From the NCBI GenBank assembly GCA_020861185.1, contig JAJBSV010000002.1, positions 1 through 64,000 on the forward strand: a DNA stretch of 64,000 nt, given 5' to 3'. The translations under genes and the position numbers were made by a program. Source of the stretch: Ruminococcus sp. (GTDB taxonomy: Bacteria; Bacillota; Clostridia; Oscillospirales; Ruminococcaceae). Within the stretch, counting starts at the first letter, position 1; each line of letters starts with the position of its first letter. This document shows, in pieces, positions 24,150 to 38,684 of this stretch. The notes under the pieces were generated by a model. The model saw nothing but the letters and a program-made list of their open reading frames with translations, searched no databases and was not told where the DNA came from.

Positions 24150-24935
24150 TTATTTCTTTTTATTGTCTTTCTTAGCTTTCTTTTTCTTCTGATTCTGATA
24201 AGGATAAGGGCTCATCTGAGCTTTTTCTCTCTTGTCGTCAAGGATGAAGCCGTAAATCGTGAGAACAGCGAAGACGACAAATCCGATTCCCGCAGGGACA
24301 GCTACGCACCAATAAGGAATGGTGTCGGAGGCTTCGGGCAGAGCCTGAATCTTGAGGGTATAGCCGAGAGCTGTGCCGCTCAAGCCCATTGCCGAAAGAC
24401 CTTCGGTGAAGAGCTCCTCCTCGGACGAGGTCATTGTCTTGAAGCGTCCCGTTATCTCGACGATACTGCCCTGATAGCCCGCATCCGGGTCGGCGGCATA
24501 TTCGAGATAGGCGTCTATGACCTCCTGAATCTCATCATCACCGCGCTTGTCAGCCTGGACAAGAGTTGCAACCTGTTCTCCGTCGATATCGAGATACATG
24601 ACATAGTAGTAATAGGTTGCGGCGTCCTCGGTGGCGGCGATATAGCCGATTTGCGCCAGGAACTTATAAGCACTGCCGGTTACATACTGGTCGGTAAGGT
24701 CGTAGGTAAGCGTTACATCCGAAAGAGCTATGACGTTTTCTGCCGTCTTGACATTGCTGTAGATAGTTCCGATGGTTGCCGCAGTCGGCAGAAATGCAAC
24801 AAGGCATATGATAGCCGCAATCAGAAGTATATAGATAGTCTTCCCGGAGAGGAACCGCTTCAGCTTGGTGTCCTCAGTCGGGGCATATTCTTCTTTAACT
24901 TCGTAGGTTTCGTTATTTCCGTCTAAAATACTCAT
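24150..24935 (-). CDS. two-span membrane protein of unknown function
   Basis: Not recognised. 261 residues: an acidic N-terminus of about 40, a membrane segment (IYILLIAAIICLVAFLPTAA), an external domain of about 150 residues containing a Tyr-rich strand (AATYYYYVMYLDIDG), a second membrane segment (WCVAVPAGIGFVVFAVLTIY), and a highly basic cytoplasmic tail rich in Lys. GGAGGAC before ATG 24935 decides the start; the frame could begin 11 codons earlier. It follows the second heterodimeric ABC exporter by 78 bp in the same direction and may be an accessory of it, though that is only positional. Confidence 0.65.
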   Translation of the reverse strand: MSILDGNNETYEVKEEYAPTEDTKLKRFLSGKTIYILLIAAIICLVAFLPTAATIGTIYSNVKTAENVIALSDVTLTYDLTDQYVTGSAYKFLAQIGYIAATEDAATYYYYVMYLDIDGEQVATLVQADKRGDDEIQEVIDAYLEYAADPDAGYQGSIVEITGRFKTMTSSEEELFTEGLSAMGLSGTALGYTLKIQALPEASDTIPYWCVAVPAGIGFVVFAVLTIYGFILDDKREKAQMSPYPYQNQKKKKAKKDNKKK

Positions 24936-25013
24936 TTTATGTCCTCCATGACATGGGTTCTGCGGCAAGCCGCCAACAACTAACGAAAATTATAGCACAT
25001 TACTTCGTCCACG

Positions 25014-26903
25014 TCAATTATTTTGTAATAGGTTTTCTTTTACAAACTGCAACATATAGAGCTCGTAATAGTGACCCTTGAGTGCAATGAGCTCGTCATG
25101 GGTGCCGCTTTCGAGTATTTCACCGTGAGAAAGATAGATGATTCTGTCGGCTTTCCGGATTGTCGAAAGTCTGTGCGCCACTATAAGAAGCGTGCCGATG
25201 TTCATCATCTTTTCGAGTGAATCCTGAATAAGGATTTCCGTTTCGGTGTCGATATTGGCGGTTGCTTCGTCAAGAATCATGACCTCGGGCTTGTGGATGA
25301 TGGTACGGGCAAACGAAAGAAGCTGTCTTTGACCGGCAGAGAAGTTGTTGCCACGCTCCCTTACCTCTTCGTCAAGACCCTTGTCAAGCTTCTCGATTAT
25401 CTTGTCGGCATTGACATAACGGCAGACGTCCATTATCTCCTCATCGGTAAAGCTGTCTTCACGGAGAACTATATTGCTTCGGATAGTACCCGAGAAGAGG
25501 AAAACGTCCTGAAGCATCTGACCGAAGTGTCGACGGAGACTTGAGACAGTGTAGTGCTTGATATCTACACCGTCGATGAGAATTTGACCCTTCTGGATAT
25601 CGTAGTTGCGGCAGATGAGGGAAAGTATCGTCGTCTTGCCGGAGCCGGTTGCTCCGACAAATGCGACCGTTTCGCCGGCATTGACCTTGAACGAAACGTC
25701 TTTAAGAACCCACTCGCCTTCGTTATAGGCAAACCAGACGTGCTTAAATTCGATATTACCCTTGCAGGTTTCGAGATTTACAGCGTCCGGCTCGTCCCGA
25801 ATTCCGGGAACCATGTCGAAAATGGTGAAAATCTTCTCGGCGGAAGCGAATGCCGACTGGAGCCAGTTGAACTGCTCGGCAAGGTTCTGAATCGGGTTAT
25901 AGAACTTTGAGATGTACATGTAGAATGATACTACTGTACCACTCGTGATAGCCTGACCGAGGAAAACAGTTTCCTTTATGTATCCCCTGCCGCCAAGATA
26001 GAAGAGGCAAAGTATAGACGAGACATAGAGCATATAGACGAGAGGACGGAAGACCGCAAATGTGAATATCTGCTGAGTCTGTGCCTTCTCGAGCTTTTTG
26101 TTGCGCTCTTGGAATTCGCCGAGCTTTCTGTCCTCACGGTTGAAAATCTGGATAATCTTCATGCCGGAAAGGTGCTCGGATATAAATGTGTTTATTTCGG
26201 TTGTGCCGTCCTTGACACGTCTGTAAGCACGGCGGGAGAACTTTCTGAATATAACCGTGAAGAGAAGAATAAACGGCACAAAGCAAAGAACCATCAATGT
26301 GAGCTGATAGTTAAGCATCAGCATGGCAACGAGTACTCCAACGATTACGAAGAAGTTCTTTATAAGGTTCACGAGGATATTCGTAAACATGACAGAAATT
26401 GCGTTGGTGTCGTTTGTAACACGGGTTACGAGCTTTCCGACCGGGATGTTATTGAGCTGTGCATGTGAAAGGCTCTCGATATGCTTCATGAGGTCTTCAC
26501 GAAGCGCGGAAAGAATCTTCTGACCGATTTTCTGGAGTACTATCGCCTGAACATAGGTGCATATCATCGAGATGATGAGGATGCTTGCGTAGACTGCGAT
26601 GTAGGCGAAAATTTCATTCATCTCGAAGTCGCCGACAATCATGTCCTCAATTTCGCCGATAATCAACGGGGATATGACGTCGTAGGCAACGGACACAAGC
26701 ATTACAAAGAGAACGAAGATGAACTGTCCCAGATAGGGCTTGGCGTACTTGAGAAGTCTCTTGAGTATTTCGCCGTCTGACATGTTTCTGTCGAAGCCCA
26801 TTGCTTCTTTTCTGTCCTTGACGGAGAGATAAGCGACTATAAAGACGATTGAGACGACGCCGATTACCGCGCCGACCGCCAAAAGAGGATAAAATTCACG
26901 CAT
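25014..26903 (-). CDS. ABC exporter half, consensus catalytic subunit
   Basis: 629-residue half-exporter: six membrane segments then an ATPase domain. Walker A is GATGSGKTT, Walker B VMILDEATANID with the catalytic Glu, H-loop AHRLST. The signature reads NFSAGQRQ instead of LSGGQ. Its partner has the complementary defect (Asp for the catalytic Glu), so together they match asymmetric heterodimeric exporters such as TM287/288, LmrCD or BmrCD, with one active and one degenerate ATP site. The ATG overlaps the partner gene by 8 bp. Exports drugs, lipids or peptides; the substrate is unknown. Confidence 0.9.
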   Translation of the reverse strand: MREFYPLLAVGAVIGVVSIVFIVAYLSVKDRKEAMGFDRNMSDGEILKRLLKYAKPYLGQFIFVLFVMLVSVAYDVISPLIIGEIEDMIVGDFEMNEIFAYIAVYASILIISMICTYVQAIVLQKIGQKILSALREDLMKHIESLSHAQLNNIPVGKLVTRVTNDTNAISVMFTNILVNLIKNFFVIVGVLVAMLMLNYQLTLMVLCFVPFILLFTVIFRKFSRRAYRRVKDGTTEINTFISEHLSGMKIIQIFNREDRKLGEFQERNKKLEKAQTQQIFTFAVFRPLVYMLYVSSILCLFYLGGRGYIKETVFLGQAITSGTVVSFYMYISKFYNPIQNLAEQFNWLQSAFASAEKIFTIFDMVPGIRDEPDAVNLETCKGNIEFKHVWFAYNEGEWVLKDVSFKVNAGETVAFVGATGSGKTTILSLICRNYDIQKGQILIDGVDIKHYTVSSLRRHFGQMLQDVFLFSGTIRSNIVLREDSFTDEEIMDVCRYVNADKIIEKLDKGLDEEVRERGNNFSAGQRQLLSFARTIIHKPEVMILDEATANIDTETEILIQDSLEKMMNIGTLLIVAHRLSTIRKADRIIYLSHGEILESGTHDELIALKGHYYELYMLQFVKENLLQNN

Positions 26904-28680
26904 TTACGACACCCCTTTCGTTTTCAAGACGCTGAAGATCGACTGTCAGCTTGTACTGCGGACAGCTCTTATAGAGCTCTTCATGGTTTCCGACTGCAAG
27001 AATATTGCCGTCGTCAATGAAGATAATCTTGTCCATATGCTCGATGGTGGTGACTCTGTGGGCGATTAGAATCGTTGTCTTGCCCTTGCGTGAAGTCTTA
27101 AGACCGGAAAGGATTTCCTTCTCGGTCTCGATATCTACTGCCGAAACGGAGTCGTCAAGGATGAGAATAGAAGCATCCTTCATAAGTGCTCTTGCAATCG
27201 AGATTCTCTGCTTCTGTCCTCCGGAGACTGTCACGCCGCGCTCGCCCAATACTGTATCATAGCCTTCGGCAAATTCAACGATATTGTCGTCGACCGCCGA
27301 AAGCTTGGCGGCTTCAACGGCTTTTTCGTGTGATACGTCATCAGACGCAAATTCGATATTGTGCTCTATCGTGTCGCTGAACAGGAAGTTATCCTGCGGG
27401 ACATAGGCACAGTATTTTCTTAGAGATGCTATCGAGATTGAATTTACATCCTTGCCGTCGACGAATATTTTACCGTCGGGGACGTTGTAGATTCTTAAAA
27501 TCAGGTCGGCAAGGGTGGTCTTGCCTGCTCCGGTTCTTCCGATTACGCCGACGCTTTCACCGGCATTTACCTTAAACGATGCGTTCTTGAGGACGTCATA
27601 CTCGCCGTCGGGGTATCTGAATGTAAGGTCTCTGAATTCGATATCGCCCTTGACATCTTCGATATCCGTAACGTCTTCCCTGTCCTTTACGTCCACTTCG
27701 GCATCAAGGAGCTCGCTGACTCTCTTAAGGGATGCTGCGCCTTGAGAGTGCATGTTGATAAGCTCGGCGACTGCCATTACAGGCCAGACGATTGAGTTGA
27801 AGTAGCCCATGAATTCGACTAATTGTCCTGCGTTGAAGGTACCCTTATAAACAAGATAGCTTCCGTAGCCCAGGATGACGCAGATTACAGACTCGACAAG
27901 AAGGGTTATGAAAATCGTCATAAGGATTGAAAGACGAGTGTATTCGACATTGGCGTCTTCGTTCTCTTTATTGAGCTTGCGGAACGCCATGAGTTCTTTG
28001 CTCTCTTTGACGAACGCCTTGATTACGGCGATTCCCGAAAAGCTTTCCTGAGAGAAGTCGGAGAGCTTCGAGAATGCCTCCTGGCGGACTTCCCACTTCT
28101 TCTCCATGTACTGCATAAGCGTCAAGCCGACACCGAAAAGAAGGGCTATCGGAATCATACAGAGGAGCGACATGAGTGCATTCATACGGAGCATCTTTAT
28201 AAATGAGAGTATTCCTAAGAATGTGGCATCGCAGGTCATGAGGACTCCGTTTGAATAGCAGTCGCGGATGGTTTCGAGGTCGTTTGTGAAGAGCGACATC
28301 AGATTGCCAACCTTGTTCTTCTGGTAGTACTGCTGAGAGAGGTTCTTGCAGTGGTCGAACATGCGGAATCTCAAATCCGCCGCAACCTTGTTTCCGCTTC
28401 CGTTGAAGCAGACGCGCCAAAGGAATCTTCCGGTGACTATTCCGACTATGATGCCTATCATCGGCAGGCAAACTTTGTCAAGAAGATAGTCGATGTCAAA
28501 CGCCGCCGTTGTGCCGTCATCAAGAGTGACATAGCCCTGATTCAGACCGTTGATGACATCGCGATAAAGCTCGGGAATGACAAGCTGTAGATAGTCGACG
28601 AGAACCAGCGCGGCAATGCCGATTAATAAAAGATAGGCATATTTTATGTAGTAGCGATTTATGTGCTTTCCGAAAAGCAA
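26896..28680 (-). CDS. ABC exporter half, degenerate-site subunit
   Basis: 594-residue half-exporter with six membrane segments and an ATPase domain. Walker A GRTGAGKTT and signature VSGGQKQRISIARAL are normal, but Walker B is ILILDDSVSAVD: Asp stands where the catalytic Glu should be, as in the TM287 half of asymmetric exporters. It therefore forms the degenerate site with the FSAGQ signature of the next gene product. The start is TTG 28680, 5 nt after GGGGGGA. It has its own promoter, separate from the exporter pair upstream. Confidence 0.9.
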   Translation of the reverse strand: MLFGKHINRYYIKYAYLLLIGIAALVLVDYLQLVIPELYRDVINGLNQGYVTLDDGTTAAFDIDYLLDKVCLPMIGIIVGIVTGRFLWRVCFNGSGNKVAADLRFRMFDHCKNLSQQYYQKNKVGNLMSLFTNDLETIRDCYSNGVLMTCDATFLGILSFIKMLRMNALMSLLCMIPIALLFGVGLTLMQYMEKKWEVRQEAFSKLSDFSQESFSGIAVIKAFVKESKELMAFRKLNKENEDANVEYTRLSILMTIFITLLVESVICVILGYGSYLVYKGTFNAGQLVEFMGYFNSIVWPVMAVAELINMHSQGAASLKRVSELLDAEVDVKDREDVTDIEDVKGDIEFRDLTFRYPDGEYDVLKNASFKVNAGESVGVIGRTGAGKTTLADLILRIYNVPDGKIFVDGKDVNSISIASLRKYCAYVPQDNFLFSDTIEHNIEFASDDVSHEKAVEAAKLSAVDDNIVEFAEGYDTVLGERGVTVSGGQKQRISIARALMKDASILILDDSVSAVDIETEKEILSGLKTSRKGKTTILIAHRVTTIEHMDKIIFIDDGNILAVGNHEELYKSCPQYKLTVDLQRLENERGVVNA

Positions 28681-28813: not shown

Positions 28814-30700
28814 TTATGCCTGCTGTTCTTTTGTGCAATACTGAGCCTGTGCGTTCCAGAGCTCACTGTACTTGCCCTCTTGCTCTATAAGCTCGTCGTG
28901 GCTTCCCTTCTGTACGATGGAACCGTGGTCGAAAACTGCGATTTCGTCGCAGAAGCGACAGCTTGAAAGCCTGTGGCTGATATAAATAGCGGTCTTATCC
29001 CCTACTATATCGTTGAACTTCGAATATATCTCCGCTTCCGCCATCGGATCGAGGGCGGCTGTCGGTTCGTCGAGGACGATGAACGGAGAATCCTTATACA
29101 AAGCTCTGGCAAGCGCTATCTTCTGAGCCTCACCTCCGGAGACGTTCACGCCGTTCTGGTCGACTTCGGTATAAAGAGTGGTTTCGAGACCGGAAGGAAG
29201 CTGTCTTAATCTGTCACCGAACCCGGTTTTTACGAGACAGTCGGTGACTTTATTGTTATCGTAGGTCATGCTTGAGGCGACGACTTCGCCGAGTTTGAAT
29301 GCCGGGAGCTTGAAGTCCTGGAATACGACCGAGAAGACGTCGAGATATTCGCGATAGTTATACTTCGTGATGTTGATGCCGTTGAGGAGGATTTCGCCTT
29401 CTGTCGGGTCGTAGAGACGGCAGAGAAGAAGTATGAATGTTGTCTTGCCGGAGCCGTTCTCGCCAACAACTGCAAGGCGTTCGCCGACTCGGAACTTGAC
29501 ATTTACATGTCTGAGAGCATAGTTGTCGCTTCCGGGGTACTTGAACGATACGTCACGGAATTCTATCTCATAGTCACGGTCAAGTCTCTTTTCAACCGTC
29601 AGAGAGCCCTTATACATACTGTGCGGGATGTCGAGGTATTCAAGGGACAATTCGAGAAACGGAGTGTTGGCTTTTAGCTGACCGAGAGTTGAGAGGGTCT
29701 GCGTGAGACCTCCTGAAACACTGGTGATTGCGGCGACGTACTGGGTGACATAGCCGATTCCGAATGCACCGCCGAGAGCTTTCAGGCAGACATAGACATA
29801 GGCAAGTCCTGAGAACATTGTCGCAATTCCGCTTCCGAGAGCGCTGAAGGCTCCCATTCCTCTTCGTGCAAAGTGAGCAAACATGCCATCAGACATGAAT
29901 ATCCCCGATTTGTCGCAGTTGTATTTCTCACTCATCTTGTGCTGATTGTACATTCTCACGTCGAGAGAATATTTTTCTTCAGTTCCTAAGAATGCGTGGT
30001 AAGTGCCGAGTCTGTTGGCTAAGTTGTGGTCACCGACATTTTTCGACCAGTAGCTTGAAGCTTTGTTGGAACACATCGGTGCTAAAAGTGTAACGCCGAG
30101 CATTATTGCAACTACAAGAATTATGCAGATTGGATTATTGAGGAATGCAAGAGATGAGCCGTCGGGGACTCTTGTTGTAAAGAGAGTTACAGTCAGAGCA
30201 ACACCGCCTATGATTGTGAAAACGCCTTTGATGAGGTCATCAACCCAACTGAGAAGATACACGAGTCCCCAGCCCCCGCTGTTGTTATATTGGTAGCTTG
30301 TTGAGTAGATATCTTTTGTCTTCTGGTTGTCGGCATCAGCGAAATCCATGTCGAGCTGCTTCTTGGTGTAGTTGCCCATTCCCCAGCAGAAGTTTGCTAA
30401 GCCGCCGCCATAGGTGTTTTTGTACTTACCTAAGAATGCACTTATGAGCGCAACTGCTGCCGCCAAAGCAAGCGTTACCAGAACAAGCATTGTGAGCTTG
30501 TCCCTATCCCTGTTCCCGGAAAGTTCAGTTATGATGAGAGCCGACATATAGATTCCGATGTAGGGACTAAGAGCAGTCCAGACGGAATTGACTACTGTCG
30601 AGATAACCATGTGAGGACTGTTTTTATAGAGAATCTTAAGACCCTGTATCGTCTTGGATGCCATCCGGCGATAGGTGATTTTGTCATTGTTCTTACTCAT
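28814..30700 (-). CDS. ABC exporter half of the LytTR-linked pair (second gene)
   Basis: 628-residue half-exporter. The N-terminal 330 residues are a membrane domain; the ATPase carries Walker A GENGSGKTT, signature VSGGEAQKIALARAL and Walker B FIVLDEPTAALDPMAE with catalytic Glu. The DEPTAALDP form is typical of peptide or bacteriocin-type and lantibiotic-like exporters. The frame opens with GTG 30709 lying on top of the ribosome site; GGGAGGG is properly spaced for ATG 30700, which overlaps the upstream stop by 8 bp. It pairs with the preceding gene. No precursor peptide is seen nearby, so a resistance or lipid role is equally possible. Confidence 0.88.
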   Translation of the reverse strand: MSKNNDKITYRRMASKTIQGLKILYKNSPHMVISTVVNSVWTALSPYIGIYMSALIITELSGNRDRDKLTMLVLVTLALAAAVALISAFLGKYKNTYGGGLANFCWGMGNYTKKQLDMDFADADNQKTKDIYSTSYQYNNSGGWGLVYLLSWVDDLIKGVFTIIGGVALTVTLFTTRVPDGSSLAFLNNPICIILVVAIMLGVTLLAPMCSNKASSYWSKNVGDHNLANRLGTYHAFLGTEEKYSLDVRMYNQHKMSEKYNCDKSGIFMSDGMFAHFARRGMGAFSALGSGIATMFSGLAYVYVCLKALGGAFGIGYVTQYVAAITSVSGGLTQTLSTLGQLKANTPFLELSLEYLDIPHSMYKGSLTVEKRLDRDYEIEFRDVSFKYPGSDNYALRHVNVKFRVGERLAVVGENGSGKTTFILLLCRLYDPTEGEILLNGINITKYNYREYLDVFSVVFQDFKLPAFKLGEVVASSMTYDNNKVTDCLVKTGFGDRLRQLPSGLETTLYTEVDQNGVNVSGGEAQKIALARALYKDSPFIVLDEPTAALDPMAEAEIYSKFNDIVGDKTAIYISHRLSSCRFCDEIAVFDHGSIVQKGSHDELIEQEGKYSELWNAQAQYCTKEQQA

Positions 30701-32528
30701 TGATGTCACCCTCCCTGTAGTATTTGCTCTGAACTTCGAAGAGTTCGGCGTATTTTCCGCCCTGTTTAAGTAACTGCTCGTGAGTTCCTTCTTCCAGTAT
30801 CTTATGGTCGCCTATCAGGATGATTCTGTCGCAGAATCTGGTCGAGGCGAGACGATGGGAGATATAGACGGAGGAACGCCCTGCGGTCATGTCGTTATAC
30901 TTGTTGTAAAGGTCAGCTTCGGCAATGGGGTCGAGAGCCGCTGTAGGCTCGTCAAGGACGATTACGGGAGCGTCTTTATACAAGGCTCTTGCGAGCATAA
31001 GCCTCTGGGTCTGACCGCCGGAGAGATTGACAGCGTTCTCATAGACTTCACGGTTGAGCTTTTCTTCGAGACCGTCCTTGAAGCCTGCCACCATTTCGGT
31101 GAGTCCGGCTTTTTCGATGCAGGAATTAACCTTATCATAGTCGATGTCGTGGTCGGTCTGGGCAACGTTCTCGGCGACCGAGCCTGCCCAGAGGATGCAA
31201 TTCTGGAATACTGCCGAGAAGACTTTATAGTATTCACGGCGGTTGAATTCACGGATGTCAACGCCATTGAGGAGCACTCGCCCCTCTGTCGGGTCTTCCA
31301 TGCCGGCGATGAGCTTGACGAGGGTTGTCTTTCCTGCGCCGTTGAGTCCGACTACTGCTAACTTTTCGCCGGCGTGAAGGGTCAGGTTGATGTCCTCAAG
31401 AGTGTAGCTGTCGGATGAAGGATACTTGAACCAGACGTGATCAAGAACTATCTCATACTTGCCGTCAGCGGGAACAGGGACATCGGAGCCATCCTCGAAC
31501 TTGAACTGCTCGGGATAGTTGATGACTTCAAGGACATTTGAAAGCTCCAGGCACTGTCTGTGCATAGTGGTGAGGTCTCCCAAAACTCCAGTTACCCAAT
31601 CGGTGAATCCGCCGACGGTTGAAAAGCAGAGGATGAACATTGAGACGTCGATTGAGCCGTCAAGAACGAGCGCTATAAAGTAAGCATAGGCTACAGCGTT
31701 TCTCAAGAAGCTTAAAGCGAGATCGGCAACCCTGCCCCAGATATAGACGTTCTCGCACCTGCGGTGGAAGGCTTCGAGGAGAAGGCACTGCTTGTCGTAA
31801 AGCTCCGTGAACCAGCTCTTGATGCCGAAGATCCGGACGTCCTTTACAAAGCTCGTTTCGGAGGCTGTTTTGCGGACATAGCTCAGAGTCTCATCAATCT
31901 TTGCTTCTTCCTCACGATGATTATAGCCGTAGCTGTTGAGCTTGTTCGTGACGAAATAGCCGACAAGAGCGGTTACCGTCACAAGGAGGAGAATCCAGAC
32001 GTTTGCAGTCGAAAGTATTGCGGCATAGATGATGAGTCCCAGGAGATTGCTCAAGAATGAGCAAATTGTTTTCCAGATAGCCTCGCAAGCCGAAGAGTTA
32101 GAGTATGTGGTTGGCAAGGCTTTATTGAGAATCGTCTGGAACTTTTCGTTGCCCAGGTTCGGGTAGGAGGTCTCGGCACACTTTGTGTTGATGAGGTTTA
32201 TGATTTCCGAACGGGTTGTTATCCTGCCGTAGAGGATGTTAGTGTCGATGTATTGCCTTGCCATGGCGAGAAACACTAAAATCAGCGTGAATCCGATTAT
32301 TGTGATGAGGAGCTCGGACGCCGTCCCATTTCGCTCGAGCACTGCAATTATCGAGGGCGAGATATAGAGTCCCGCAACACTCTGACCTGTCACGACGAGC
32401 AAGAAGAGAAGTCCAAGGATTACAACCTTTTTCTCGCCGTTGGTCCAGGCGCATTTAATCATGAACCAGACACAGCTTAAGATGCCGTACTTTGGTTTTT
32501 CTTTTGTCTTATCTTTGGTATTTATCAT
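30693..32528 (-). CDS. ABC exporter half of the LytTR-linked pair (first gene)
   Basis: 611-residue half-exporter: membrane domain, then ATPase with Walker A GLNGAGKTT, signature LSGGQTQRLMLARAL, Walker B VIVLDEPTAALDP and H-loop SHRLAS, all intact. Unlike the downstream exporter pair, both halves here look catalytically complete. Start: ATG 32546 coincides with the predicted start of transcription, so ATG 32528 (AAAGGCGGTG upstream) is used. The promoter lacks a -35 box and carries direct repeats, implying control by the LytTR regulator encoded at 33.3-34 kb. Confidence 0.88.
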   Translation of the reverse strand: MINTKDKTKEKPKYGILSCVWFMIKCAWTNGEKKVVILGLLFLLVVTGQSVAGLYISPSIIAVLERNGTASELLITIIGFTLILVFLAMARQYIDTNILYGRITTRSEIINLINTKCAETSYPNLGNEKFQTILNKALPTTYSNSSACEAIWKTICSFLSNLLGLIIYAAILSTANVWILLLVTVTALVGYFVTNKLNSYGYNHREEEAKIDETLSYVRKTASETSFVKDVRIFGIKSWFTELYDKQCLLLEAFHRRCENVYIWGRVADLALSFLRNAVAYAYFIALVLDGSIDVSMFILCFSTVGGFTDWVTGVLGDLTTMHRQCLELSNVLEVINYPEQFKFEDGSDVPVPADGKYEIVLDHVWFKYPSSDSYTLEDINLTLHAGEKLAVVGLNGAGKTTLVKLIAGMEDPTEGRVLLNGVDIREFNRREYYKVFSAVFQNCILWAGSVAENVAQTDHDIDYDKVNSCIEKAGLTEMVAGFKDGLEEKLNREVYENAVNLSGGQTQRLMLARALYKDAPVIVLDEPTAALDPIAEADLYNKYNDMTAGRSSVYISHRLASTRFCDRIILIGDHKILEEGTHEQLLKQGGKYAELFEVQSKYYREGDINE

Positions 32529-32552
32529 ATTGGCACCGCCTTTCATGATTTT

Positions 32553-32615
32553 ATTATAGCGGAAATTTTAAAGAGCGCACGTTTTGGGGACGAAACGCTC
32601 TCTGTGGGGGACGAA
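32553..32615 (-). promoter_or_regulatory. activator-type promoter with LytTR-like direct repeats
   Basis: Minus strand TATAAT at 32553-32558 has no recognisable -35 (CGTGCG at the expected place). TTCGTCCCC occurs at 32607-32615 and 32586-32594, 9-bp repeats separated by 12 bp (21-bp period), ending 4 bp before the -35 position. This is the spacing of AgrA/VirR-type LytTR sites; the base match to the AgrA consensus is only partial. Confidence 0.6.
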
Positions 32616-32628
32616 TTGCAAATTTCAG

Positions 32629-33276
32629 CTATTGCGGGAGGAGAATTTCGGTCGAGAATGCTCCGTCCTCGCTGTTGCGGGAGACATAGCCGCCGTATTT
32701 CTTGACAAGAGAATCAATACGGGCAAGCCCCAAGCCGTGACCTTCGCCCTTGGTGGTGTCGAAAATTAAACGCTTCTTGTCGGCGGTGAAATTGGTGAAG
32801 GATATGTAAAACTGACTGTCTCGGACTGCCATATAAACACGAATCATGCGCTTGTCTTCGGGAAGTTTTTTTGATGCTTCGATAGCATTATCAAACAGAT
32901 TTCCGACTATTGAGCAGAGGTCTATATCGGAAACCGAGAGCTTCACGGGGATTTCGGCATCTGCCTTGACGGGGATTTTTGCCGCCTTGGCGAGGGAAAT
33001 CTTGCTGTTTAAAATAGCGTCGCACATGGCGTTGCCGGAATGGATAACAGTGTCGACGGTGTTGAGATCGGTTTCGAGCGCGTTTAAATATTCCATAACG
33101 GAATCCATGTCGCCCGACATGACACGGGTCTTGAGAATCTGGATATGATTGCGATAGTCATGCCGCCAGCCCCGAATCTGCCTGTACATATTGTCGACCT
33201 CGGCATAATGGGTCTTCAGGAGTTCCTGTTGATAGGCATCTATTTTCCTGTTCATTTTCTTTGAAAGCTTGGGCAT
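32629..33276 (-). CDS. membrane-less GHKL histidine kinase
   Basis: 215-residue sensor kinase of the AgrC-like GHKL class. The phosphoacceptor is His39 in WRHDYRNH, the ATP lid has NLFDNAIEASKK (N box) and GHGLGLARID (G box). There is no membrane segment and no sensor domain: only about 30 residues, possibly coiled coil, precede the His. So input must come from a partner or from the cytoplasm. The start ATG 33276 has AAGGAG 8 nt upstream; the frame also opens at GTG 33285. It is 5 bp from the response-regulator stop, so both are made together. Confidence 0.88.
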   Translation of the reverse strand: MPKLSKKMNRKIDAYQQELLKTHYAEVDNMYRQIRGWRHDYRNHIQILKTRVMSGDMDSVMEYLNALETDLNTVDTVIHSGNAMCDAILNSKISLAKAAKIPVKADAEIPVKLSVSDIDLCSIVGNLFDNAIEASKKLPEDKRMIRVYMAVRDSQFYISFTNFTADKKRLIFDTTKGEGHGLGLARIDSLVKKYGGYVSRNSEDGAFSTEILLPQ

Positions 33277-33281
33277 CACAT

Positions 33282-33986
33282 TCACTCCTTCCCTACTCTA
33301 TGAATCAGTGCTCTGTTAAGCGGCTCATATTGCCCGCGAGGCAATGGGATTACGATATTGTCTTTCAGATGGATTTCGGTTTTGGTGACCTTGCGGACGT
33401 ATCGGAGATTTACGATATATGAGCGCCCGGTGCGGTAGAAGTTCTCATCAAGTAAGCTCTCAAATTCGCCGAGAGTTTTCTTGACGGTGTAATCCTCGTC
33501 GGCGTGGACGGTGACATAGTTTTTGATGACTTCAAGGTACTTTATTTCTATGAGAGGGACTTTGACGGTCTCATCTGTCAGTTCAAGTGTAAGCATACGC
33601 TCACTTCTAGCAATCTTAACTACCGCTTTGTCTAAGACTTCAAAAAGCTTTTCCTCTTTCAGAGGCTTCATAAGATAATTCAGGGCGTCGACATCGTAAC
33701 CCTCGGCTATATAGTCAGAGTAGCCGGTGATAAAGACAATCTGTACATAGCGGTTGTCAATTCTCAGTCTCTTTGCAAGGCTGACCCCGTCCATGCCGCC
33801 CATTTCTATGTCCAGAAGAAGTATGTCATAATCTCTGTTCTCGGAATATGAGAACAGGAACGCCTCGGCAGAATCGAAGATATTAATTTCAGTTGTCAGG
33901 TCTCTGGCGGTCGCCCATTTTTGCGTGAGTTCGTGAACAAGACTAGACATGTCCTGCGAATCATCACAGATTGCTATTTTATATAT
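33282..33986 (-). CDS. LytTR response regulator (AgrA/VirR type)
   Basis: 234-residue regulator: receiver domain with acidic pair Asp8-Asp9 and phospho-Asp59 (LLLDIEMGGMDG), Lys in NYLMKP, then a LytTR DNA-binding domain (ending NIVIPLPRGQYEPLNRAL). Start: family alignment puts it at MYKIAICDD. That codon is ATA (33986), 7 nt after AGGGGAGG. The in-frame ATGs at 34013 and 34019 lie at or upstream of the predicted start of transcription and have no ribosome site. It probably activates the exporter genes downstream of the kinase. Confidence 0.88.
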   Translation of the reverse strand: MYKIAICDDSQDMSSLVHELTQKWATARDLTTEINIFDSAEAFLFSYSENRDYDILLLDIEMGGMDGVSLAKRLRIDNRYVQIVFITGYSDYIAEGYDVDALNYLMKPLKEEKLFEVLDKAVVKIARSERMLTLELTDETVKVPLIEIKYLEVIKNYVTVHADEDYTVKKTLGEFESLLDENFYRTGRSYIVNLRYVRKVTKTEIHLKDNIVIPLPRGQYEPLNRALIHRVGKE

Positions 33987-34017
33987 GCCGGTGCCTCCCC
34001 TCTTATAATCCATATCC

Positions 34018-34046
34018 ATTTTATAACACTCAGGCTTAAAAGTCAA
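34018..34046 (-). promoter_or_regulatory. promoter of the regulator-kinase genes
   Basis: Minus strand TTGACT, 17-bp spacer, TAAAAT; transcription would start near 34011, about 25 nt before the ATA start codon. Confidence 0.7.
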
Positions 34047-35933: not shown

Positions 35934-35987
35934 GGGGTTTTGTAAAAAAAGTTTGAAGCCCCTCACGCTCGCCCTTCGGGCTCGCGA

Positions 35988-36095
35988 ACCTCTCAGTCAG
36001 CTTCGCTGACAGCTCCCCTTATCAAGGGGAGCCATAAGTAACGCAAAAGGCTCCCCTGTCAAGGGGAGCTGGCGCGCGTAGCGCGACTGAGAGGT
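35988..36095. repeat. 108-bp palindromic repeat element
   Basis: The ends ACCTCTCAGTC and GACTGAGAGGT are perfect inverted repeats. Inside are nested hairpins: AGCTTCGCT, GCTCCCCTTATCAAGGGGAGC, GGCTCCCCTGTCAAGGGGAGC and GGCGCGCGTAGCGCG. Flanking CGCCCTT/AAGGGCG extends the symmetry outward. Similar CTCTCAGTC/AGGGGAGC elements are dispersed through many gut clostridial genomes. No coding sequence. It sits between the rpsB promoter and the stop of the repeat-protein gene and accounts for most of the 340-nt gap. Confidence 0.8.
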
Positions 36096-36118
36096 GCCGT
36101 GAGCCAAGGGCGAACGGC

Positions 36119-36135: not shown

Positions 36136-38505
36136 TTATCTTCTCTTCCCTGCCACAGTTGCCGCCAATGCAATCGCCATCGGCAGAAGCGCCAGTGCAA
36201 TCCCCGTGGTCGGGTTGGTTTCGGGTTCAGTCTCTTCCGGTTCATCGTCCGGTTCGGTTTCGGTGTTGGTGTCCTCTATCGGTTCGTTGATGGTGACCGT
36301 CTCCTCGGTGAGCTCTACCGCCTTGAGGTTCGAGATAGCCGTCTCTATTGCCTCGGCATAGCCGTTGACAGTCGCCTGATTCAGCACATTCAGATTCCAC
36401 TGCACCGCATTTATCGCCGCCGTGACATCCGCAAAGTTCGAATAGTCGCTCGCATTCAGGGCGTTAGCCTTCGCAATAGCCTCATTGACCGCCGTGTAGT
36501 TCGCCTGAATCACCAGAAGGCTTGTGCCGGTGGTCTTGGTAGTCGTATAGGTCTCGTTTTCAAACTCGACCTTCGCCGTATAGGTGACCACCCCAAGGAA
36601 GTTCCTCGAAGTAACCGTCGCGTCAACCGTCTGAACATCGCCACAGGTGCAAGTGAACGTCGCCGTGCAGGTGTTGCCGTTCCAAGTGAACACAGGCTCG
36701 CCATAGGTATGCCCTGTTGCCGTTACAACCGTATCGGCTAAGTCGATTTCCGTCGTTGCGTTCTCATCGCTGAAATACTTCTTGCAGGTCTCGCAGTACC
36801 AATATTCGGTATTGCCATCAGCGGTGCAAGTGGCGTCATTAGCCTTGTAGTAAGTCAGACTATGCCCCGTAGCCCCTATAATAATAGTGCTCGTATCGGT
36901 AATCTCGTTATTGCCGTCCTCATCGCTGAAATACTTATCGCAATTCGCACAGTGCCAATACTCGATATTTCCGTCCTCGGTGCAAGTGGCATCCTTGGCT
37001 TCGACATGAGTCATGCTATGACCGGTTGCGCCAATAACTATGATGCTTGTTTCCTGCTTGACACCGTTGACTTCTATATAGTACCGGTTGCAGGTATCGC
37101 AAAACCAGTATTCATAATAACCATATTCCGTACAAGTCGGGTCTACTGCTTCGTGATGCTCGGTAAAGTTATGCTCAACCTTATCCCCCGTCACCGCCGA
37201 CTTTGTCTCGTCGCAAGGATAAGTCTTTCCGTTGAATGTTACCGATGCGGTGTAATATGTGACCTGAACAGTGATACATGAATCTACAACCCTTGTGGCA
37301 ATATCACAATCCACCGTCTCTACATGACTGCTGTCATTATCACAGGTAAATGTGGCGGTACAGGTGTAATCGCTCGCCCAAGTGAAAACAGGCTCGCCGT
37401 AGTTATGCCCGGTCGCCGCTATAGCCTCGGTCTGGGTATCCGTATATTCGGTTCCATTGAACGTGACCGTCGCAGTATAAGCAATCTCGCCATCCGTTGT
37501 GCAGGTAGCCGCTGTAGTGCCGCTTGTGACTGTAGCGTCCAAAGTCTGCGTATCATCGCCCTCGTCACAGGTAAATGTGGCGGTACAGGTGTAATCGCTC
37601 GCCCAAGTGAAAACAGGGTCGCCATAGCTATGCCCCTTCGCGGAAAGCACCGTATCACTCTGACTGATTTCCGCTGTAGCCGCTGAATCGCTGAAGTACT
37701 TGTCGCAATTCGAGCAGTACCAGTATTCACTGTTTCCTTCTGCCGTGCAGGTCGCTAATTGCGCCTCTACATGCGTCAGAGCGTGACCCTTCGCAGAAAG
37801 CACCGTATCACTCAAGCTGATTTCCGCTGTAGCCGATGAGTTGCTGAAATACTTGTAGCAATTAGAGCAGTACCAATATTCGATATTTCCGTCCGTCGTG
37901 CAAGTAGCATCAACAGCTTCGTAATGCGTCATGTTGTGCCCCGTCGCATCAATCGTCTCGGTTTTGGTTTCGCCACATTCTGTGCAAGTGTAAGTTATTT
38001 CTCCCGCTTCTGTGCAAGTTGCTTCTTTTGTAACTTCCGATGTGTAATCATGATCCACTACGGTAAAAGCAATCGGACCCACTGTTCTCGTGGCAAGCAC
38101 CTCTCCACTGGATTTGTCGGTAACAGTCATAATATAGTAATAATATGTCGTAGTCCCTGCTTCGGCGTCATATTTACCGTTGTTTACTATTACATAATCA
38201 GTATCCGATATAATCCATGTGCCACCCTCCGTACTATCTGTTTGATTCATATACCAATTTACTGTGACGTCAACGCTTACACTATTGATTCTGTAAGACG
38301 CAGCCAATCTTAAATCGGCTGTACCGCTTTTTTTACACAATGCATATGTATAATTATTTATATAGTCACTATAGCTAAAGTTATATGCTACACGAATTCC
38401 AGCCGTAATCTCAAGCTCATCAGCATCGGCTACCGTCGTCATCCCTACAGTTGTAGTTATGAGCAAACATAAACTCAGAATCACTGCTAATAATCTCTTC
38501 CTCAT
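36136..38505 (-). CDS. secreted Cys-rich repeat protein with NPTTG sorting signal
   Basis: 789 residues. Signal peptide (1-28), a unique domain to about 150, then alternating modules: about six TCTxxGxxEYWxCxxCxKYFSD units (near 163, 200, 252, 457, 507, 559), each with a CxxC pair and a following GH, and YGxPVFTWxxDYTCTATFTC units (near 293, 369, 600). Residues 667-730 look like a FIVAR helical bundle. A Glu/Pro/Thr spacer leads to NPTTG (764-768), a hydrophobic stretch and KRR, a cell-wall sorting signal of the (S/N)PxTG kind used by class B sortases. Probably a wall-linked adhesin or scaffold. AAGGAGG decides ATG 38505; the longer frame starts upstream of the promoter. Confidence 0.85.
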   Translation of the reverse strand: MRKRLLAVILSLCLLITTTVGMTTVADADELEITAGIRVAYNFSYSDYINNYTYALCKKSGTADLRLAASYRINSVSVDVTVNWYMNQTDSTEGGTWIISDTDYVIVNNGKYDAEAGTTTYYYYIMTVTDKSSGEVLATRTVGPIAFTVVDHDYTSEVTKEATCTEAGEITYTCTECGETKTETIDATGHNMTHYEAVDATCTTDGNIEYWYCSNCYKYFSNSSATAEISLSDTVLSAKGHALTHVEAQLATCTAEGNSEYWYCSNCDKYFSDSAATAEISQSDTVLSAKGHSYGDPVFTWASDYTCTATFTCDEGDDTQTLDATVTSGTTAATCTTDGEIAYTATVTFNGTEYTDTQTEAIAATGHNYGEPVFTWASDYTCTATFTCDNDSSHVETVDCDIATRVVDSCITVQVTYYTASVTFNGKTYPCDETKSAVTGDKVEHNFTEHHEAVDPTCTEYGYYEYWFCDTCNRYYIEVNGVKQETSIIVIGATGHSMTHVEAKDATCTEDGNIEYWHCANCDKYFSDEDGNNEITDTSTIIIGATGHSLTYYKANDATCTADGNTEYWYCETCKKYFSDENATTEIDLADTVVTATGHTYGEPVFTWNGNTCTATFTCTCGDVQTVDATVTSRNFLGVVTYTAKVEFENETYTTTKTTGTSLLVIQANYTAVNEAIAKANALNASDYSNFADVTAAINAVQWNLNVLNQATVNGYAEAIETAISNLKAVELTEETVTINEPIEDTNTETEPDDEPEETEPETNPTTGIALALLPMAIALAATVAGKRR
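37340..37617. repeat. exact 53-bp direct repeat inside the repeat-protein gene
   Basis: Positions 37340-37392 and 37565-37617 are identical and 225 bp (75 codons) apart, in frame, both encoding the PVFTWASDYTCTATFTCD core. The flanking modules are far more diverged, so this copy is recent or kept alike by conversion. Confidence 0.8.
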
Positions 38506-38513
38506 AAAAAATA

Positions 38514-38564
38514 CCTCCTTACTTTTCGTGAAGGAGGAATTGTTCTGGGTCGCCTCCAAGCACG
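38514..38564 (-). promoter_or_regulatory. leader with alternative hairpins around the ribosome site
   Basis: In the transcript the ribosome site AAGGAGG (38514-38520) can pair with CCUCCUU (38531-38537) over 7 bp with a 10-nt loop. The same CCUCCUU can instead join an upstream arm: CGUG..GGAGG (38553-38564) with CCUCC..CACG. The two folds exclude each other, the layout of a translational switch. It matches no riboswitch class I recognise. Confidence 0.5.
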
Positions 38565-38610
38565 AAGCTTTGTTGGGTGGATGGGGGTTGGGCTCGGTGT
38601 TTCTGGGATT

Positions 38611-38639
38611 ATTGTAACATACAAAAGCATGTTTGTCAA
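38611..38639 (-). promoter_or_regulatory. promoter of the repeat-protein gene
   Basis: Minus strand TTGACA, 17-bp spacer, TACAAT. Transcription would start near 38604, giving a leader of about 100 nt. Confidence 0.8.
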
Positions 38640-38684
38640 GCGGTTTTTGGACGGATTTGCAAATTTTTTGCAAAAATCTGTTTA

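Follow-up and report, generated by a model that had tools for sequence, protein, structure and literature searches.

A conserved repeat pair and an embedded hairpin at an ABC exporter promoter of Ruminococcus point to a predicted self-contained LytTR export switch

What would a response regulator control, and what could it respond to, when the histidine kinase encoded beside it has no recognisable sensor and the next two genes encode ABC exporters? The question is raised by a locus in a stretch of 64,000 nucleotides from a Ruminococcus sp. contig (the window). A first-pass annotation of this DNA had proposed that a LytTR regulator switches on the exporters from a repeated word in front of them. 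On the evidence of comparative sequence analysis, we consider it very probable that the locus is a self-contained four-gene export switch, in which the regulator would act on a pair of TTCGTCCCC words to activate the exporters and a hairpin would insulate their promoter.

The four-gene cassette and its repeat pair

All four genes lie on the minus strand. The LytTR response regulator (34019..33282) has a receiver domain (PF00072, E 3e-17) and a LytTR domain (PF04397, E 2e-17), and its stop codon is overlapped by the GTG start of a 218-residue GHKL histidine kinase (33285..32629; HATPase_c_5, PF14501, E 4e-22). Next come ABC exporter A, a permease-ATPase assigned by Pfam and by its orthologues (32546..30693), and, overlapping its end, ABC exporter B (30709..28814, Pfam). 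The Pfam hits thus bear out the order given earlier, a LytTR regulator and a GHKL kinase before two ABC exporter genes. The likely start of exporter A, read from the sequence, is the ATG at 32528 behind AAGGCGG; it is preferred because transcription is expected to start at the ATG at 32546. Further downstream, a second pair of ABC genes (28680..25014) comes with a promoter-like site of its own and was left out of the four-gene unit, and behind it lies a membrane protein matching DUF6709 in Pfam (24150-24968, minus strand). The regulator and kinase genes are preceded by a site that is promoter-like in its consensus match only (TTGACT-17-TAAAAT, 34018..34046, minus strand), from which the operator repeats are absent.

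At the position homologous to the start codon of related regulators (33986-33984, minus strand), the window has ATA, 7 nt below GGGGAGG; close relatives (L062/L026 and L063) have ATG there. The in-frame ATGs upstream (34019 and 34013) are at or upstream of the point where transcription is expected to begin. The ATA might be a rare start, a mark of a leaderless start, a sequence error or a sign of a weakened regulator. Elsewhere in the window, an inverted-repeat element of the GCTCCCCTTATCAAGGGGAGC type (35955-36110) adjoins rpsB, and similar letters occur in L133, a locus whose contig stops after the kinase. A predicted surface protein (36136-38673, minus strand) has CT..G...Y.C..CG repeat units and a hydrophobic C-terminal tail.

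The gap between the kinase and exporter A is 82 bp long and reads TGCAATTCGTCCCC-N12-TTCGTCCCC-N27-TATAAT. Repeat 1 (32615..32607, minus strand) and repeat 2 (32594..32586, minus strand), both read from the sequence and conserved in relatives, are identical 9-mers with a 12-nt spacer. The annotated arrangement, TTCGTCCCC twice at a 21-bp period just above the -35 position, is therefore exact over 32615..32586. One pair match at up to 3 mismatches was found in the window versus 0.04 expected. In the 1.97-Mb genome, the window pair is the sole exact copy and one further site has 3 mismatches, with one match for the reversed control as well. The window expectation, together with a gene-blind pattern search and a shuffle comparison (see below), ruled out a chance repeat.

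Conservation of the pair and its link to the regulator

The gene-blind search used the pair alone, at no more than 1 mismatch, against 394 genomes of the order, and returned 31 places in 29 genomes versus 3 for the reversed pattern. An exporter A homologue lies downstream of the pair in 26 of 30 pattern loci (the window's own locus included), and in 24 of them homologues of the regulator, kinase and exporter A surround the pair in the same order within the 3-kb locus. At L022 the regulator and kinase are about 1.5 kb from the pair on the same contig. At L003 (genome G340) they are on a different contig, where the 1.5 kb past the kinase contains no exporter, and the L003 exporter is likely a target in trans. 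No exporter homologue accompanies the pair at L006, L010, L017 and L030. At the first of these (genome G267), an exact pair with a correctly spaced TATAAT stands before an unrelated gene, which we take to encode a TldD/PmbA-type peptidase and which is perhaps a second target of the operator; the same genome has a normal cassette (L031). Because the search led mostly back to this operon, the prediction of a dedicated local regulator for the exporter pair is well supported. A broad regulon was rejected, since what the order-wide search returned was mostly this exporter.

Two further searches started from the proteins. The first-pass annotation had suggested looking for the repeats upstream of orthologous exporters, and such a search with exporter A (60 relatives, 40 with a match, 30 loci kept, one per genome) found the pair at 0-4 mismatches out of 18 in all 26 loci with at least 40% identity, so that it is kept down to that level of divergence; in the four loci at 27-31% identity it is absent (9-11 mismatches). 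The kinase alignment gave at least 592 candidate stretches in named genomes, of which 478 were confirmed and the best 80 kept, so that the counts below describe the closest homologues. According to their record titles, these best 80 of 478 belong to Oscillospiraceae, Lachnospiraceae, Faecalibacterium, Gemmiger, Roseburia, Butyrivibrio and other groups, and many of the titles give the gut or rumen as the source. Exporter A is downstream of the kinase in 75 of the 80, exporter B follows it in 69 of the 75, and the pair (at most 4 of 18 mismatches) is upstream of exporter A in 72 of the 75. The stretch scored for pairs ran from 170 nt upstream to 45 nt downstream of the aligned start of the exporter, and first-order Markov resamples contained one in 2 of 1500 cases. 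The three exceptions have an exact pair displaced to 262 nt below the kinase stop (L077), a pair with 2 mismatches (L137) and two copies of a variant word, CTCAGCCCC, with the period unchanged (L086). A lack of conservation, which the annotation had named as the outcome that would speak against it, was thus not what we found.

Within the same best 80 of 478 kinase loci, the pair was seen at none of 69 sites upstream of exporter B. It is upstream of the regulator in 2 of 72 loci, one of which (L126) is probably spurious, as its contig begins inside the regulator gene. Five of the 80 kinase genes have no exporter, two of them at contig ends, and the pair was not found below the three with enough contig (L071, L087 and L114; best 5-8 mismatches). 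With the spacing left free and plain shuffles for comparison, the period is 21 bp in 72 of the 75 loci and 20 bp in one. The distance from the kinase stop to the pair is 0-40 nt in 53 of the 75 and more than 40 nt in 14, and in the remaining 8 the pair starts inside the kinase reading frame; seven of these eight kinases have a tail ending xSSP-N3-xSSPx, which is the operator read as protein. The comparison thus shows the pair, its phase and its bond to the exporter to be real.

Some records raise questions of provenance. One cassette (L066) is in a record titled Gorillibacterium timonense, presumably a genus outside Clostridia, and possibly reflects transfer, contamination or misnaming. Kinase homologues were also found in 1 plasmid-collection and 42 phage-collection records, all below 60% identity. 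One of them, MT837636.1 (Bacteriophage sp., human faeces), encodes a 45% identical kinase and is possibly mislabelled bacterial DNA or a mobile copy.

To what extent might the regulator itself specify the word? Its receiver D70 is among the invariant columns in an alignment of 21 homologues, and across paralogues covariation with the operator word is strongest for N167 (codon 33521-33519) and G198 (33428-33426). Paralogous cassettes can be numerous. Genome G048 (contamination 7%) has seven kinase paralogues with the same geometry and different words; the pair is clear in L145, L147, L149, L150 and L152 and weak in L148, and L151 has neither exporter nor pair. In L140 (7296-16198), two complete tandem cassettes have different words, TTCGTCCCC/TTCATCCCC and TTGGTGCAA/TTCGTGCAG. 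From the best 80 of 478 kinase loci and further loci we assembled 144 modules, of which 112 had a score of at least 19, an exporter and a regulator; 92 were left at 90% identity. The score is biased towards TTCGT at positions 1-5 of the word but not towards any letter at base 6. In the 92 modules, N167 goes with C at base 6 in 73 of 73 cases, and the others are H-G (17), H-A (1) and Q-A (1), with both kinds in tandem on contig L140; on copy 2 this is the strongest link between any regulator column and operator position (0.77 bits). Residue 198 comes second (G-C 67, H-G 13, ten other combinations in 12 rows). In a profile alignment to 3bs1, residues 167 and 198 align with AgrA H169 and H200, and the part of PMC4227749 available to us, whose numbering we use, describes impaired DNA binding for H200A. 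Residue 167 and base 6 divide all 92 rows in the same way, but on the tree their link needs only 3 changes, with only one independent pair on well-supported branches. Significance is out of reach of the test, and the code may be inherited history. For the CAGCCCC variant (L086 and L105), no clear covariation with regulator residues was apparent by eye.

The exporter promoter, its hairpin and the sign of control

The -10 hexamer TATAAT (32558..32553, minus strand) begins 27 nt below repeat 2, and the hexamer at the -35 position (32581..32576, minus strand) is CGTGCG, in agreement with the earlier description of a promoter with TATAAT and no -35. For the logo and the hairpin analysis, L089 (11-bp spacer) was excluded, and dereplication at 85% identity left 60 of 74 promoters. 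In these 60, the -10 is 27-29 nt below repeat 2 in 59 and is preceded by TG (extended -10) in 55, and a conserved -35 was not found; in the window's genus the TG is missing, but the TATAAT is perfect. The logo reads TGCAATTC(G/A)TC(C/A)CC for copy 1 and (A/G)C(A/G)ATTCGTCCCCgaA for copy 2. The operator has a 9-12-9 geometry and ends 4 bp above the -35 position. This geometry and the extended -10 of most relatives are those of the LytTR-activated promoters described in the available part of PMC6193735. Since there is no -35, the promoter looks dependent on help.

The promoter also has an element that is absent from the first-pass description. Between the operator and the -10, a hairpin is predicted (32602..32571, minus strand), followed by TTTAAAATTT; the 75-nt segment folds at z -3.4. 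In the window it contains repeat 2, 3 of whose 9 bases are paired, and the T-run behind the stem is weak, as elsewhere in the genus (e.g. 3 T of 10 in L062). Over the 60 promoters, T occupies each of the positions +20 to +24 below repeat 2 in 73-88%. The fold has z below -2 (dinucleotide shuffles, 60 each) in 46 of them and is weak or absent (z above -2) in 14. Its 5' arm is repeat 2 in 42 promoters, the spacer in 9 (including the window's genus) and downstream sequence in 5, with none in 4. Within the 42, the variable word position 4 is paired as G-C in 28, A-U in 9 and G-U in 4 and is unpaired in 1. Pairing is kept, and the two sides of the hairpin therefore change together, through compensatory changes. 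A fold of -12 kcal/mol or lower is retained in 11 of the 14 loci (best 80 of 478) whose pair stands over 40 nt downstream of the kinase stop, and also in L003 and L022, where the 3-kb locus has the exporter without the regulator genes. As the hairpin stays when the kinase is displaced or on another contig, it belongs to the exporter promoter, and a plain terminator of the kinase gene was rejected on the same ground. We infer that it acts as an insulator halting upstream transcription, and a role in DNA is also possible.

Could the repeats act in RNA instead? Pairing of repeat 2 (or 1) with the downstream arm would then conditionally terminate a transcript running from the regulator through the kinase to the exporter, and a DNA operator would not exist. 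The T-run hairpin in most promoters, its compensatory changes and the identity of the two repeats, either of which could pair with the same arm, all fit this view. However, the strict 21-bp period and the fixed 27-29 nt to the extended -10 are features of DNA, the 5' arm is something other than repeat 2 in 18 of 60 promoters, and the word varies with a LytTR residue that aligns with the DNA interface of AgrA. Moreover, the 14 of 75 pairs (best 80 of 478) farther than 40 nt from the kinase stop, 11 of which keep the fold, and L003, which retains pair and hairpin with its kinase on another contig, count against this reading, and we regard an RNA switch as very improbable. It is about equally improbable that the regulator binds the pair and represses the exporter promoter until the kinase relieves it. 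The sign of control is not readable from sequence, and the LytTR protein CoxC is a repressor (available part of PMC11347149). Yet the CoxC repeats overlap the -35, whereas the operator here stops upstream of it, with the core promoter left clear, and a promoter without a -35 looks dependent on help. In addition, LytTR sites at this place activate in the promoters covered by the available part of PMC6193735, as do most LytTR regulators according to that of PMC11347149.

Kinase input, cargo and related systems

Activation of the exporters by the regulator being the preferred reading, the nature of the signal comes into question. The whole kinase consists of a DHp and an ATPase part, and its 218 residues include no N-terminal polytopic membrane sensor. 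Its phosphoacceptor by analogy, H42 in RHDYRNH, is invariant in an alignment of 20 homologues. Among solved structures, the AgrC kinase module 6e52 is the nearest relative (E 9e-17), matched from kinase residue 14. The maximum of 19-residue hydropathy is 1.12, versus 2.72 for the genome's other kinase. The one other LytTR protein found in the genome adjoins a kinase of 388 residues whose N-terminal half is strongly hydrophobic. Among the best 80 of 478 kinase loci, the stop-to-stop length has a median of 232 codons and is at most 300 in 76, and six homologues have hydropathy maxima of 1.6 or more, none above 1.72. The missing sensor is therefore a family trait. The kinase was thus rightly called soluble, having no recognisable membrane or sensor part, and for the same reason the earlier suggestion of a cell-envelope state as signal loses ground, direct sensing of the envelope being less likely. 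Two options for the signal are left to such a kinase, namely a cytosolic ligand or the exporter itself. In Bce-type modules, a sensor-poor kinase adjoins an ABC transporter under its control, and by this likeness the transporter could be the sensor here too. The likeness has its limits, because the window kinase has no membrane part, the regulator is of the LytTR type and the exporters are permease-ATPase fusions.

What the exporters carry is approached through their domains and neighbours. Of the two domains of type IV exporters (MsbA/P-gp fold), both proteins match the ATPase domain PF00005 and neither matches the six-helix exporter domain PF00664; exporter A aligns with P-gp and MsbA from the later part of the membrane domain onward; and PADLOC gave matches on the exporters alone, in their ATPase part. 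The first-pass annotation had seen no peptide precursor, and this agrees with our comparison of 56 loci with at least 6 kb past the exporter start, where no neighbour besides the exporters recurs (ORFs of at least 35 aa). Other frequent ORFs overlie exporter B and look like its shadow frames, and the next family off exporter B occurs in 6 of the 56. A linked precursor or maturation gene therefore seems unlikely, which makes a protective pump likelier than an exporter dedicated to a peptide; the pump would remove a toxic compound rather than export a home-made one. The main competitor is a circuit of the agr, com or blp kind built on a peptide pheromone or bacteriocin, with an unlinked peptide gene and a pump that exports the peptide, and such a circuit would be compatible with the operator as we read it. 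It gains something from the AgrC-like kinase, from the AgrA-like regulator and from the L006 pair, whose gene we assume to encode a TldD/PmbA-type peptidase. It loses more to the want of a membrane receptor, of a C39 peptidase in the Pfam results for the exporters and of any recurrent neighbour except the exporters in the 56 loci. We consider it unlikely, although less so than the repression and RNA alternatives.

Each of the parts has known counterparts. In having a receiver and a LytTR domain and tandem 9-bp repeats above the -35 position of its target, the regulator has the layout of AgrA/ComE-type response regulators. In the agr system of S. aureus, AgrA likewise acts on tandem direct repeats upstream of a promoter, according to the available part of PMC4227749, and the AgrC module is the closest solved relative of the kinase. 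The window cassette differs in having no membrane sensor or linked peptide gene, another word and an exporter pair as the target. LytTR regulatory systems (Zou et al. 2018, PMC6193735, again as far as available) resemble it in their 9-bp repeats, mostly with a 12-bp spacer, a few bp above the -35; their words are off the old consensus, and some have an extended -10 or linked ABC transporter genes. However, they have a membrane inhibitor instead of a kinase and no receiver, and they control their own operon, whereas here no pair was seen above 70 of 72 regulator genes (best 80 of 478). The GTCCC word does not occur in the main text of that paper. RcoM1 reads TTCNNGCA repeats at 12-13 bp (PMC11347149, in part), which fits the word TTCGTGCAC of one class of paralogous cassettes but not TTCGTCCCC. 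From the same source, RcoM and CoxC, with three repeats, a single-protein carbon monoxide sensor and, for CoxC, repression, are unlike the cassette. BlpRH of Streptococcus gallolyticus shares a LytTR regulator and a motif just above a poor -35, but its kinase has 5 membrane segments, its signal is a peptide and it has 12 putative regulated operons (available part of PMC8545106). C. difficile RR_1586 is, in the text available, an OmpR-family regulator. The word string also occurs in the accessible parts of PMC11347149, as a PCR primer, and of PMC4847170, as a deliberately mutated site; neither is this operator. In a literature search that covered few subscription papers, partly in excerpt, no report of TTCGTCCCC as a LytTR site or of the cassette came up. 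The parts are thus of known kinds, and it is the combination of a sensor-less kinase, a dedicated operator and an embedded hairpin that appears new.

The following sequence of events would account for these features. The regulator and the sensor-less kinase would be made from their own promoter, and a signal reaching the kinase inside the cell or at the exporter would lead to phosphorylation of the regulator. A regulator dimer would then bind both TTCGTCCCC words on one helix face, at about -69 to -40, and would recruit RNA polymerase to the -10-only promoter, switching on exporters A and B. The T-run hairpin between operator and -10 would halt transcription arriving from upstream, and, by stopping read-through, it would let the pump be made only when the operator is in use. 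It is tempting to go further, if only tentatively, and to speculate that the AgrC kinase core takes its input from the exporter it controls (or from a cytosolic pump substrate) in a transport-sensing loop, that the promoter-side half of the operator doubles as a terminator stem and that paralogous cassettes are kept apart by an N167-GTC / H167-GTG code.

If the switch works as proposed, a target, an operator and a promoter layout would be defined for a large family of LytTR/GHKL/ABC cassettes, whose targets and potential cross-talk could then be predicted from sequence. The overlap of operator and hairpin and the residue-to-base link are both testable and bear on how LytTR proteins choose their DNA. 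Finally, the sensor-less kinase would make the question of how a signal reaches a kinase that lacks a sensor directly accessible to experiment.
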